A DNA stretch of 64,000 bases from Planotetraspora phitsanulokensis. Lineage in GTDB: Bacteria; Actinomycetota; Actinomycetes; Streptosporangiales; Streptosporangiaceae. Below the pieces are notes generated by a model. It saw only the letters and a program-made list of their open reading frames with translations. It was not told the DNA's origin and ran no database searches. This document shows, piece after piece, positions 5,651 to 63,274 of the stretch (position 1 is the stretch's first letter; each line of letters opens with the position of its first letter). The stretch covers positions 124,001 to 188,000 of the forward strand of contig NZ_BOOP01000023.1 of assembly GCF_016863295.1 (NCBI RefSeq), written 5' to 3'. The translations under genes were made by a program, and so were the position numbers.

Positions 5651-5656
5651 TAGGGT
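5651..5656 (+). promoter_or_regulatory. -10 element of leaderless O-methyltransferase promoter
   Basis: TAGGGT, then seven bases, then the ATG at 5664. This spacing places the transcription start on the start codon. Confidence 0.45.
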
Positions 5657-5663
5657 GGTCGTC

Positions 5664-6317
5664 ATGAAGGCTGCCAATTTCATCGACGCCACCGTGGCCG
5701 AGTACGCCGTCTCGCACACCACTCCCCCCGACGACCTCCTGCTCGCCCTGGCGGAGGAGACGCGGCGGGTCACCGGCGGGAGCGCCGGCATGCAGATCAC
5801 CCCCGAGCAGGGCACGCTGCTCACCATGCTCGTCCAGCTCACCGGAGCACGGCAGGCCGTCGAGGTGGGGACCTTCACCGGCTATTCGTCGATCTGCATC
5901 GCCCGGGGCCTGCCGTCCGACGGGCGCCTCCTTGCCTGCGACGTGAGCGACGAGTGGACGTCGATCGCACGGCGCTACTGGGACGAGGCGGGTGTTGCCG
6001 ACAAGATCGAGCTTCGCCTGGGGCCGGCCGCCGAGACCTTGCGGGCGCTGCCCAAGGAGGAGTGGATCGACTTCGCGTTCATCGACGCGGACAAGGCCGG
6101 CTACCCCGTTTACTACGAGGAGGTCCTCGCACGGCTCGTGCCGGGCGGCCTCATCGCCGTGGACAACACGCTGCAGCACGGGAAGATCACCGACGCATCG
6201 TACGGGGGCAACGTCCCGGGGATGCGCGCCTTCAACGACCTCGTCGCGGGCGATCCGCGCGTCCGCACGGTGCTGGTGCCGATCGGCGACGGCCTCACCC
6301 TGGTCCGTAAGGGCTGA
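5664..6317 (+). CDS. Class I SAM-dependent O-methyltransferase (caffeoyl-CoA type)
   Basis: A 217-residue methyltransferase of O-methyltransferase family 3. Motifs are AVEVGTFTGYSSICIARGL (SAM-binding motif I), LLACDVSDEW (acidic motif II), WIDFAFIDADKAGYPVYYE (the divalent-metal Asp cluster) and LIAVDNTLQHGKI. Family members methylate catechol-type hydroxyls using Mg2+ or Ca2+; the physiological substrate is unknown. Start at 5664 gives the family's normal length and fits the TAGGGT hexamer seven bases upstream. It diverges from the cimA leader region and converges on ilvE, with the 53-bp repeats between the two 3' ends. Confidence 0.88.
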   Translation: MKAANFIDATVAEYAVSHTTPPDDLLLALAEETRRVTGGSAGMQITPEQGTLLTMLVQLTGARQAVEVGTFTGYSSICIARGLPSDGRLLACDVSDEWTSIARRYWDEAGVADKIELRLGPAAETLRALPKEEWIDFAFIDADKAGYPVYYEEVLARLVPGGLIAVDNTLQHGKITDASYGGNVPGMRAFNDLVAGDPRVRTVLVPIGDGLTLVRKG

Positions 6318-6339: not shown

Positions 6340-6458
6340 GTGCATGATCACGGCCGGTGGAAGGCCTGGTCGGAGGGCCTTCCATCGAATCCGTGCATGA
6401 TCACGAACAGAAACTGCGCAGGTCGGGGGCGCTCTTCCCGAACCTGTGCATGATCACG
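6340..6458. repeat. Three 53-bp-spaced GTGCATGATCACG boxes
   Basis: The 13-mer GTGCATGATCACG occurs at 6340-6352, 6393-6405 and 6446-6458, exactly 53 bp apart. Between boxes each unit keeps a C[TA]GGTC block at unit position 27 and CGAA[TC]C at position 47, with variable 13- and 14-nt spacers. In the first unit the spacers form an 8-bp stem (GGAAGGCC/GGCCTTCC) with CTGGTC at its loop. The block fills the gap between convergent genes and reaches to 9 nt before the ilvE stop. Related blocks lie at 35741 and 63208. Confidence 0.8.
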
Positions 6459-6467
6459 GGCAGGGGG

Positions 6468-7559
6468 TCAGCAGATCTTGTGGACCCAGTTGTGGGTGTC
6501 GGGGCGGTTGCCGAACTGGATGCCCATCAGCTCCTCGCGGATCTTGAGGGTGACTGGGCCTGGGGTGCCGTCGCCGATGGTCCAGCCGCGGTCGGATCCC
6601 TTGACCGTGCCCACGGGCGTGACGACGGCGGCGGTCCCGCACGCGAAGACCTCCGTGAGCTCGCCCGACTCGCAGGCCGACTGCCAGTCCTCGATGGAGA
6701 TCTTGCCCTCCTCGGCCTTGACGCCGAGCTCGCTCGCCATGGTGAGGATCGAGTCCCGGGTGATGCCGGGGAGCAGGGTGCCGGTCAGGGCCGGGGTCAC
6801 GAGGCGGTCGCCGAAGACGAAGAACAGGTTCATCCCGCCCATCTCCTCGACCCAGCGGTGCTCGAAGGCGTCGAGCCAGACGACCTGGTCGCAACCCTGC
6901 TCGACTGCCTGGCGCTGGGCGACGAAGGCGGCCGCGTAGTTGCCGCCGCACTTGGCGAACCCGGTGCCGCCGGGGGCCGCCCGGGTGTACTCGGTCGACA
7001 GCCAGACCGAGACAGGCTGCACGCCGCCGGAGAAGTACGACGCGGCCGGCGAGGCGATCACCATGTACCGGTAGTTCCGCGACGGGTGGTTCACCCCGAG
7101 CCCGGCCTGTGTGGCGATCATGAAGGGGCGCAGGTAGAGGCTGTGCCCCTCGGTCGTCGGCACCCAGTCACGGTCGGTCTGGACGAGCAGTTCGAGCGAC
7201 TCGACGAACGTCTCCTCGGGCAGTTCCGGCATCGCCATGCGCAGCGCGGACCGGTTGAACCGGGCGGCGTTGGCATAGGGGCGGAACGCCACGATCGACC
7301 CGTTGGCCTGCCGGTAGGCCTTGAGTCCCTCGAACAGCTCCTGGGCGTAGTGGAACACCGAGGTGGCGGGGTCGAGGAGCAGCGGCCCGTACGGCTCGAG
7401 CCGCGCGTCGTGCCAGCCACGCCCCTCGGTCCAGTCGATGGAGACCATGTGGTCGGTGAACGTCTGCCCGAAGCCGGGGCTCGCCAGTACCTGCTCCCGC
7501 TCGGCCACGGTGCGGGCCTGCTGGTTGAGCTGCACGTCGAAGCTGAGCTGGGTGGTCAT
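6468..7559 (-). CDS. ilvE: Branched-chain amino acid aminotransferase
   Basis: A 363-residue fold-type IV PLP enzyme that performs the last step of Leu, Ile and Val synthesis. The Schiff-base lysine is K203 in [14 protein letters not shown]. Other landmarks are [36 protein letters not shown] and [15 protein letters not shown] (phosphate-binding loop). Length and motifs are typical of the actinobacterial type. AAAGAAGG before the ATG is a good ribosome binding site. It lies downstream of leuB on the same strand but beyond a strong hairpin, so it is probably transcribed from its own promoter in the 146-bp gap. Confidence 0.95.
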
Positions 7560-35740: not shown

Positions 35741-35806
35741 GTGCATGATCACGCCCGGCATCGGCCCAGGTCAGCGATGATGATCGCGAACCTGCGCATG
35801 ATCACG
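35741..35806. repeat. 53-bp GTGCATGATCACG repeat, second locus
   Basis: Boxes at 35741-35753 (GTGCATGATCACG) and 35794-35806 (GCGCATGATCACG) are 53 bp apart. CAGGTC at unit position 27 and CGAACCT at 47 match the unit at 6393 exactly, while the 13- and 14-nt spacers differ fully; they contain a CATCG/CGATG stem. The second box contains the stop codon of the convergent VanW gene. Confidence 0.8.
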
Positions 35807-37754
35807 AGGGAGGGGCGGGGCAGGTGATCGCGGCTTGGGGGTGGTAGACGGTGGTGAACGACTGGCGGTCCTCGGCCTTGCCGTCCCGCTTGAGGATCCG
35901 CGTCACCTCTGCCGTGAAGCCCGGCTGCTCGGGGACCGGCACGCAGTTCGGACCGCTGCCCTCCACCGGCGCGAGGTGGAGGAACCGGGTCTTTACCGGA
36001 TCGCGGACCTCCACGTCGTACCGCTTGGTGCTCCACAGGGAGACGACCAGCGACGTGTCACTCGCCGAGGCCTGGATCAGCACGCCGTACGGGCTGTCGT
36101 TGGTCCATTTCAGGTCCGGCTCCGGATAGGACACCGCGGCGTCCATCCCGGCCGGATACTGCGGCGTGTAGACGTCGGGCGGCGTGCGCTCGATGTCCCC
36201 AAGCCCGGCGCGGATCACGGCGTTGAGCATCGTGGTCGCGATCTGGGTCATGCCCGCGACGTCCGAGCCGGCCGTGCCCCGGATCTGGGTGGGCATGGCG
36301 GCTCCGCTGAACCCGCCGGCGGCGTCCCGCCTCCCGACGAACTCGTTGAACGAGAACGTCTCCCCCGGCCTGACCAGATGGGTGTCCAGCATGCGGGCGG
36401 CGGCCTGGATGTCGGCGACCCGCGGCTGGCAGCAGGCGTAGGAGGTCGTGAATTCGCCGATCTTCTCCTCGACGCCCATCTTCAGCGCGTCGGTGTCCGT
36501 CACGACCGGCGGAGCGCCGACCAGCGTCACCGGCACGGTACGGCCCCCGCCCTCCATCGCCTTGATCATGTCGACCCCGAGCCGGCCGGTGTCCACCCGC
36601 TTGCCCGCCCGGGCGTGCACCAGGACCGGCTTGCCGTCCTCGATCGTGAACGTGGCGTTCCTGGCTCCGGCCTCGGCGGCGACCAGGCGGTGCTCGAAGC
36701 CGACGGCGGCGGCCGCGGCGTCGAACCGGGGCTTCAGGGATCGGCCCTCGGGCACGAACGACAGGTGCCCGGCCAGGACCGCCGGAGGGAGCTGGACGGA
36801 CTTCGCGCCGAGGGTCAGCGTGATCGGCTCGGCCACCGCATTCTTCGCCCAGGCCACGGCCTGCTGGACGGCGGCCCGGTCGACCTGGGGGACGTCCTTC
36901 ACGGCCGCGGCCATGACCGTGACGTCCGGGCTGAGGTAGGCCCGCTGGATGTCCCGGGCCACGATCGTCTTGTCGATCCCGTTGCCCGGATGCGGATAGA
37001 CCGGTACGGGGACCGTCCCCTTGAATTTGACCCCGCCCTCCTGCGCCGGGTCCTCGAGGGAGGCCCCGACGTCCTTGGCCACGGCGGCCTCCAGCTTGAC
37101 CTGGTCGACCGAGACCACCGGTGTGATCTCACGGCCTCCGAAGATCGACCCCACGACCTCCGCGGGACTGGGGAAGCCGATCGGCGCCTGACCCGCGGTC
37201 GCCTCGGCGTCGAACTGGAGCCCCGCCTCAAGGGGGTCGACGGGAATGCGGTGGGTGCCCTGCCGGACGACGATGGGCGAGCGGGTCTCGGTGTACAGCT
37301 TCTCCTGCAGGCTCAACGCCGCGTCGGACACGGTCTGCCCGCCGATGTCGACGCCGAGGACCATGGTCCCGGGCAGGATCCGGCCGGACATGGAGATCGC
37401 GGGAATCAGATAGGCGAGCAGCAGCAGGAGGACCAGGCCGGCGACCGTGTAGCGGAGCGTCCGCCGTTTCGGCTCGGGTCCCGGTTCGAACGGGGCGGGT
37501 TCCTCGATGATCGTCTTTTCGACCACCGGCCAGAGCTCGACCTTGGCCGCCGGCGGGGGAAGGCTGCTGCCCTGCGCCGAGGCCGACGGCCCGGGCGCGG
37601 ACGGCCCCGGCCGCTCGCCGAAGATGTCGGCGGAGACTCCCGGAGGCAGAGCGGACGCGTTCGACCGGACCGGATGCTTCTTGGGCGGATCGGAGGCGGG
37701 AACGGCCGACAGCGGATCCGTCGGCGGATCAATCGACGCTCCGGCGTTCCGCAC
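35802..37754 (-). CDS. VanW-family membrane-anchored protein
   Basis: A 650-residue protein. A Pro/Ser-rich cytoplasmic region (1-105) is followed by one membrane helix (YTVAGLVLLLLLAYLIPAI) and then a large external part. That part contains one or two YkuD-associated peptidoglycan-binding-type domains (about 135-400) and a VanW domain with FSFNEFVGRRDAAGGFSGA, GMTQIATTMLNAV, YPAGMDAAVSYPEPDLKW and DSPYGVLIQASAS. The name comes from vancomycin clusters, but VanW alone does not confer resistance; the family is common in Gram-positive envelopes and its function is not settled. Upstream DNA carries two ACAACAACGT direct repeats 34 bp apart. The 3' end lies inside a repeat box. Confidence 0.85.
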   Translation of the reverse strand: MRNAGASIDPPTDPLSAVPASDPPKKHPVRSNASALPPGVSADIFGERPGPSAPGPSASAQGSSLPPPAAKVELWPVVEKTIIEEPAPFEPGPEPKRRTLRYTVAGLVLLLLLAYLIPAISMSGRILPGTMVLGVDIGGQTVSDAALSLQEKLYTETRSPIVVRQGTHRIPVDPLEAGLQFDAEATAGQAPIGFPSPAEVVGSIFGGREITPVVSVDQVKLEAAVAKDVGASLEDPAQEGGVKFKGTVPVPVYPHPGNGIDKTIVARDIQRAYLSPDVTVMAAAVKDVPQVDRAAVQQAVAWAKNAVAEPITLTLGAKSVQLPPAVLAGHLSFVPEGRSLKPRFDAAAAAVGFEHRLVAAEAGARNATFTIEDGKPVLVHARAGKRVDTGRLGVDMIKAMEGGGRTVPVTLVGAPPVVTDTDALKMGVEEKIGEFTTSYACCQPRVADIQAAARMLDTHLVRPGETFSFNEFVGRRDAAGGFSGAAMPTQIRGTAGSDVAGMTQIATTMLNAVIRAGLGDIERTPPDVYTPQYPAGMDAAVSYPEPDLKWTNDSPYGVLIQASASDTSLVVSLWSTKRYDVEVRDPVKTRFLHLAPVEGSGPNCVPVPEQPGFTAEVTRILKRDGKAEDRQSFTTVYHPQAAITCPAPPS

Positions 37755-63207: not shown

Positions 63208-63274
63208 CGCGATCATGCATGCCATTCCCGCACATCCAGCCCCACCAGTCACACCGGCAAGCGTGATCATGTAT
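63208..63274. repeat. 54-bp TGATCA-box repeat, third locus
   Basis: Read on the minus strand, ATACATGATCACG (63274-63262) is followed by ATGCATGATCGCG (63220-63208), 54 bp apart. CTGGTG falls at unit position 27, as CTGGTC or CAGGTC does in the other units. It lies downstream of the M55 peptidase gene on the same strand and upstream of the oxidase gene. Confidence 0.6.

Follow-up and report, generated by a model that had tools for sequence, protein, structure and literature searches.

A 53-bp intergenic repeat family beyond gene ends in Planotetraspora as a candidate array of protein-binding sites

REP/BIME palindromes, which go together with RAYT transposases, occur as hundreds of intergenic units, form inverted pairs and lie near gene ends. 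The mycobacterial interspersed repetitive units (MIRU) are short intergenic tandem repeats of actinobacteria that are near identical over the whole unit. CRISPR arrays combine a short repeat with a fixed pitch and variable spacers. The stoperators of mycobacteriophages keep one orientation relative to transcription. They are described as asymmetric sites of one protein, scattered over the genome, which are said to terminate elongation (PMC9283540). For the DNA uptake sequences of the Neisseriaceae, it is reported that intragenic copies are common, that dialects exist and that inverted pairs are associated with terminators (PMC3630211). The TAACTGA heptamers of the Beggiatoaceae are intergenic direct repeats that lie mostly upstream of start codons; their distribution is patchy and, in the view of its authors, possibly horizontal in origin (PMC4679880).

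The repeat considered here was noticed in a window of 64,000 nucleotides of Planotetraspora phitsanulokensis DNA, by which we mean the whole stretch that was analysed (Table 1; genomes and loci are cited by our own G and L labels). As the first-pass annotation of this DNA had described, three exact copies of GTGCATGATCACG begin at 6340, 6393 and 6446, i. e. 53 bp apart, between two convergent genes, an O-methyltransferase gene and ilvE. The two further blocks that it named, C[A/T]GGTC and CGAA[C/T]C, are present as well, as CTGGTC and CAGGTC at 6366 and 6419 and as CGAATC and CGAACC at 6386 and 6439. The same layout had been said to recur at 35741 and, reversed, at 63208. The former holds: the boxes at 35741 and 35794 are a 53-bp pair between convergent genes, the second box with one mismatch. 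The latter holds in part. A minus-strand pair does exist at 63208 and 63262, but its boxes are 54 bp apart with two mismatches each, and it stands between same-direction genes and faces a start codon.

Table 1. Features of the repeat arrays and their flanking genes in the window.
Feature	Positions	Strand	Remarks
O-methyltransferase gene (PF01596)	5655..6317	+	flanking
Box 1, GTGCATGATCACG	6340..6352	+	array start; without the left part CGAAC
Hairpin GGAAGGCC/GGCCTTCC within unit 1	6359..6383	no strand	site-specific
Middle block CTGGTC, unit 1	6366..6371	+	
Box 2 with left part, CGAATCCGTGCATGATCACG	6386..6405	+	profile score 35.5
Middle block CAGGTC, unit 2	6419..6424	+	
Box 3 with left part, CGAACCTGTGCATGATCACG	6439..6458	+	terminal; profile score 37.2
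G-rich tract 3' of the terminal box	6459..6469	+	reaches the ilvE stop codon at 6468
Class IV aminotransferase gene (PF01063), here named ilvE	6468..7559	-	flanking
Box of the second array	35741..35753	+	score 14.9; convergent gap
Next box of the second array	35794..35806	+	53 bp on; overlaps the facing gene (35802-37526) at its stop codon
Degenerate box ATGCATGATCGCG	63208..63220	-	54 bp from the next box
Degenerate box ATACATGATCACG	63262..63274	-	score 19.8; gap between same-direction genes

A genome-wide count, which the first-pass annotation had called for, gave 189 exact copies of GTGCATGATCACG in the 9.17-Mb draft genome and none of the reversed pattern. Four Planotetraspora congeners hold 505, 583, 654 and 151 exact copies of this 13-mer. 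Among 297 genomes drawn from the order, ten carry at least 18 copies (five Planotetraspora, G176 with 469, G248 with 29, G254 with 25, G100 with 20 and G172 with 18), and all others six or fewer. With a 20-bp profile, trained on the same sequence that was later scanned with it, 353 sites were found at a score of at least 13 in three Planotetraspora genomes (1.65 Mb scanned); at a score of at least 14 there were 343 matches versus none for the reversed profile. The unit derived from 335 copies in four genomes is CGAACCTGTGCATGATCACG-N13-CAGGTC-N14, in which N13 is weakly G/T-biased and N14 contains a weak T.TC, whereupon the next box begins. Same-strand neighbour intervals below 240 bp measured exactly 53 bp in 198 of 226 cases in G000-G002; in G003 this spacing accounted for 136 of 142 intervals and in G176 for 25 of 46, where 52 bp is also frequent. 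Short spacings of 17-45 bp occur too, genome-wide, and by our reading represent array ends or spacers with an acquired second core. A second core, GGCATGATCACGA, was indeed seen in the right spacer of some units, 18 bp before the main box, by which the 53-bp unit is split into 35+18 (G000, G001, G002, G003).

The boxes avoid genes. In 464 kb of DNA that was not selected around matches (400 contiguous kb of G000 C1 and the window), 29 of the 33 profile matches were intergenic and 4 lay inside genes, though 84.6% of this DNA is coding. Among the gaps of at least 30 bp in the G000 sample, those with boxes were 11 of 91 between convergent genes, 22 of 326 between same-direction genes and 2 of 130 between divergent genes. 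These counts, like the other placement and orientation figures and those for G325 below, rest on gene starts and ends from crude gene callers. The proposed placement at gene 3' ends, with enrichment between convergent genes, is confirmed. Terminal boxes have a median distance of 17 bp to the stop codon where they face a 3' end (103 cases) and of 91 bp to the start codon where they face a 5' end (46 cases), with orthologous arrays counted more than once, as they are in the orientation, cluster and unit-copying figures, and with 14 of the 353 matches dropped from the gap-placement analysis because they had no flanking gene on both sides. For arrays between same-direction genes, the median distance is 21-30 bp from the upstream stop codon and 95-136 bp to the next start codon (five genomes). 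Of the 44 one-armed arrays in such gaps, half (22) follow the direction of transcription and half (22) oppose it (five genomes). Together, the stop-proximal position and the balanced orientation indicate an element without regard for strand that either belongs to the upstream gene's end or is excluded from promoters.

Core, pitch, gene-end position and the tolerance of either orientation ask for a reader of double-stranded DNA. Hence we favour, with a probability of roughly 0.5, that a putative sequence-specific protein binds the arrays as double-stranded DNA and perhaps sets up a roadblock or boundary at the ends of genes. Among the options raised at first sight, i. e. a terminator, a structured RNA or tandem protein-binding sites, the last fits best, and neither a structured RNA nor a general or strand-specific terminator is supported. 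The putative protein would make its main contact with the 20-bp box CGAACCTGTGCATGATCACG and a weaker one with the CAGGTC block, and would assemble along adjacent units at the rigid 53-bp pitch. Once bound, the assembly could stop read-through and converging transcription as a roadblock or boundary where genes end; alternatively it might serve as a nucleoid anchor. Since the arrays lie between a gene end and the next promoter and show no strand preference, a role as roadblock or boundary seems most likely.

Comparison between congeners agrees with the earlier proposal of a selected element: core and spacing are conserved and the same intergenic sites are used. Boxes were present at the matching site in 134 of 146 directed comparisons among G000-G003 and absent in 12, whereby presence is over-counted for G001-G003 and part of G000, where the stretches were chosen around matches; for G000 alone, most of whose matched stretch was not selected by hits, boxes were found in 25 of 31 comparisons. 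Differences in core versus spacer amounted to 23/904 versus 426/2411 aligned bases in the pair G002-G003, 27/830 versus 793/2132 in G001-G002 and 55/663 versus 679/1726 in G001-G003. Between congeners the core thus evolves 5-11 times slower than the spacers, albeit the conservation of the boxes is partly ascertained, because the arrays were located through them.

The length from box to box was the same in 55/58 (G002-G003), 44/47 (G001-G002), 32/35 (G001-G003) and 10/11 (G000-G001) orthologous intervals, as expected of tandem binding arrays whose spacing is under selection. Box-free gaps accumulated 0.061 substitutions per base with 0.098 indel events per substitution (48 gaps, G002-G003) and 0.151 substitutions per base with 0.084 indel events per substitution (57 gaps, G001-G002). 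By our estimate, 34% divergence over 40 bp would bring about one indel per interval, so that about a third of the intervals should be unchanged and not 94%. Within array alignments, spacers and unlabelled neighbouring positions showed 0.0038 versus 0.0136 gap events per base in one genome pair, 0.0103 versus 0.0240 in G001-G002 and 0.0062 versus 0.0247 in a third pair. The deficit of indels in the spacers is milder here than against box-free gaps, which tells somewhat against the protein array.

Helical phasing of the arrays is weakly supported: 53 bp is near five turns and odd spacings favour a phase of 10.5 bp (R = 0.44, p about 0.02; 18 distinct spacings from samples), but the genome-wide short spacings, by our own reading of the list, run continuously from 17 to 30 bp without clear phase. 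Several points count against a protein array. The strictness at 53 bp versus 52-54 goes beyond what helical phase alone would need, the pitch of about 37 bp in G325 is near 3.5 turns, and patchiness (287 copies in G384 and one in G340, see below) is odd for an important host function. Moreover, local copying of units could preserve some sequence without function, and the share of boxes in divergent gaps of the small G325 sample (see below) departs from that in Planotetraspora.

Substitutions per base in the spacers exceed those in box-free gaps more than twofold (0.139 versus 0.061 and 0.340 versus 0.151), as seen in orthologous G001/G002/G003 arrays such as L091, L093, L171 and L173. Unlabelled positions in and beside the arrays are fast too (0.120 and 0.307), so rapid change of the spacers is possibly a trait of the region or of the alignment. 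Part of it may be due to local copying of units: identity above 0.7 was found in 18 of 747 unit pairs within an arm and in 20 of 672 between opposite arms, compared with 0.18% of random pairs between clusters. Units are copied between opposite arms about as often as within one (L179, L188, L190 and others), much as strand switching within a palindrome would do. In one case, the array near 9807 of L178, the whole array is inverted relative to its flanks when compared with three congeners (L080, L101 and G000 C1 203478).

Such copying is also what the main rival to the protein array would predict, namely a selfish or neutral dispersed repeat that descends from a past mobile or amplifying element, has outward-pointing ends that resemble terminal inverted repeats, expands through template switching at the locus and is tolerated only where it is harmless, past stop codons and off promoters. 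We regard this as unlikely, though several features speak for it. The arrays do point outward, for neighbour pairs closer than 1500 bp were minus-plus in 34 cases and plus-minus in 4 (G000-G002), and these few are matches 3 bp apart in which one near-palindromic core scored on both strands; yet both strands are occupied in only 52 of the 123 clusters, the remaining 71 being one-armed. The scarcity of boxes in divergent gaps, the patchy distribution over genomes and similar inverted box pairs at differing places in G366 and G254 also suit a selfish repeat. Against it, the arrays keep the same sites in congeners, and no clean insertion was seen in the four aligned cases among seven array clusters with an absent counterpart (the three unaligned clusters are one site seen from three genomes). 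Core and spacing are, furthermore, constrained above the level of box-free intergenic DNA, and a selfish repeat leaves the held spacing unexplained. An origin from phages, viral contigs or plasmids was rejected, as two viral scans and the plasmids gave no matches and the single 24-bp phage match (E 0.5) is attributable to chance. Y1/RAYT transposases were likewise rejected: PF01797 was found in 2 of 16 box-rich genomes (G004, G018) and in 3 of 24 others, with no match in G000-G003.

Quite improbable, in our judgement, is that the arrays are terminators which act through RNA, be it by hairpins that form inside units or from inverted boxes or, in a Rho variant, by a C-rich entry site in the RNA of the gene faced by the array. 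The closeness of terminal boxes to stop codons fits this. So does the G-rich tract on the outer side, which reads as C-rich on the sense strand of the facing gene, but the tract is present beyond terminal boxes also where these face a start codon. Short inverted box pairs in G254, G366 and G443 could form hairpins; the 71 one-armed clusters could not do so by their boxes. A strand-specific 3' element is not supported by the 22:22 orientation, and at the gathering score there was no Rfam match in the window.

The pairing of spacers had been put forward as covarying stems. We measured covariation by pair excess and mutual information and, in a second test, swapped spacers between units. As a general trait the stems did not stand: in 213 non-redundant units it was adjacent columns that coupled most strongly, and no 5-bp helix exceeded a mean z of 1.05, so that there was no general compensatory pairing. 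The mean folding energy of the spacers on the plus strand equalled that of swapped units (-8.38 versus -8.28 +/- 0.13) and was slightly lower on the minus strand (-7.29 versus -6.90 +/- 0.16). What did stand is that spacers pair in some units. Perfect left/right complements of at least 6 nt occurred in 12 of 213 units versus 4.9 +/- 2.1 after swapping, and those of at least 9 nt in 3 units versus 0.1 expected. This small excess of long complements points to real hairpins in a few units, unit 1 of the window included, whose 9-nt stem pairs perfectly.

The unit-1 hairpin recurs at the O-methyltransferase/ilvE site of four congeners and may be a local terminator of these two genes. The O-methyltransferase is 89-93% identical to that of Planotetraspora kaengkrachanensis, P. 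silvatica and P. mira and 81% identical to that of P. thailandica. Among the 40 loci examined, out of 80 O-methyltransferase loci retrieved, the gene faced ilvE in 15. The gap contained boxes, in varying unit numbers, in the four species named; it was box-free in ten loci, of which one is labelled Planotetraspora sp. A-T 1434 and the others are from Microbispora, Sphaerimonospora and Microtetraspora, and one more locus had no gap at all.

The box is not confined to Planotetraspora. In a set of 246 genomes of the class, at least 20 copies of the 12-mer TGCATGATCACG (A variant included) were present in seven, namely G000, G018 (65), G323 (35), G325 (289), G384 (287), G366 (22) and G443 (29), the rest having six or fewer; a survey of the family with one genome per genus added more enriched genera. 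Two genomes of one genus differ as widely as G384 with 287 copies and G340 with one, which makes them a good pair for tracing the responsible gene. In the loci inspected, the lineages share the core and, for the most part, the G-rich outer flank, while inner extension and pitch vary. The inner extension is GGTGGCGGGAT with a pitch of about 37 bp in G325 and, in one array of G443, GGCGAACG with a pitch of 44; the pitch in G323 is 22 bp. In 60 kb of G325 chosen around matches, 15 of 16 boxes were intergenic and 6 of these 15 lay in divergent gaps, where boxes are rarest in Planotetraspora, though the sample is small.

That one 12-mer comes with unrelated inner extensions and periods in different families is as one conserved reader would give. 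Tentatively, and at less than even odds, we propose a novel class of gene-end boundaries on actinobacterial chromosomes, in which a conserved putative protein would read TGCATGATCACG in several families and arrays built up lineage by lineage would insulate neighbouring genes. The word would stay fixed across families and inner extension and pitch would shift with the lineage, and in some lineages the sites would have been multiplied into rigid arrays 3' of stop codons. A native regulatory site in unamplified genomes was considered and rejected: 27 of 30 copies (out of 33 in 17 genomes) lie in open frames of more than 300 bases, albeit open frames are weak evidence in GC-rich DNA, and seven share one coding context, presumably aconitase (L321, L327, L329, L331, L339, L340, L349).

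Two further alternatives fall behind. A signal for DNA uptake or transfer, with dialects as in Neisseria, would account for the 151-654 exact 13-mers per Planotetraspora genome, for lineage-specific extensions on a constant core and for inverted pairs in some lineages. We hold it to be very improbable, since 29 of 33 matches are intergenic, whereas intragenic uptake sequences are common (PMC3630211), and since an uptake model has no use for tandem arrays with a rigid 53-bp pitch. Chance or ordinary short-repeat noise, although 12-mer copies do arise in coding DNA of unamplified genomes (7 of 30 loci in one coding context), is practically nil as an explanation and already refuted by 189 copies versus 0 reversed, by up to 654 copies per genome and by the fixed spacing.

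In our view, the separation of convergent genes and the proteins that organise the chromosome in GC-rich actinobacteria are largely open fields, and the repeat offers a concrete, abundant sequence that can be used as bait. It can also serve as a natural experiment, since a 10-bp core and its spacing persist amid rapidly changing sequence and several families have each amplified one word separately.

The first-pass annotation knew of no described family of this form, and the open-licence literature agrees, having yielded no description of the Planotetraspora 53-bp repeat. In the searchable portion of open-licence full text, the box or its complement appeared only in a list of ArgR sites of S. 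coelicolor and in a fish paper, and a shorter string of the box only in the S. coelicolor ArgR paper and in a M. tuberculosis paper. Interspersed intergenic repeats as such are known; a family with rigid pitch, held core and fast spacers is new as far as the literature searched goes.

How, then, do the Planotetraspora arrays compare with the described systems? With REP/BIME they share intergenic units by the hundreds, inverted pairs and the vicinity of gene ends, but their unit is not a hairpin, their pitch is fixed and there is no link to Y1 transposases. The unit length resembles that of MIRU, but mainly the box and CAGGTC persist from unit to unit. Like CRISPR arrays they have a short repeat, a fixed pitch and variable spacers. 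Unlike in CRISPR arrays, the spacers share the CAGGTC block and a weak consensus at several other columns, few units are found at many loci, and the spacers evolve by substitution in place. The TAACTGA repeats are likewise intergenic, short, direct and patchy, whereas the Planotetraspora repeats are 53-bp units past stop codons (PMC4679880). An over-represented short word with lineage variants on a constant core is also what characterises the Neisseriaceae uptake sequences (PMC3630211); the Planotetraspora arrays differ in being mostly intergenic, in their rigid 53-bp direct repeats and in their second conserved block. The stoperators provide a model for reading the arrays as roadblocks (PMC9283540). 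In contrast to stoperators, the Planotetraspora sites are chromosomal, number in the hundreds, stand in arrays and occur equally in both orientations (22:22).
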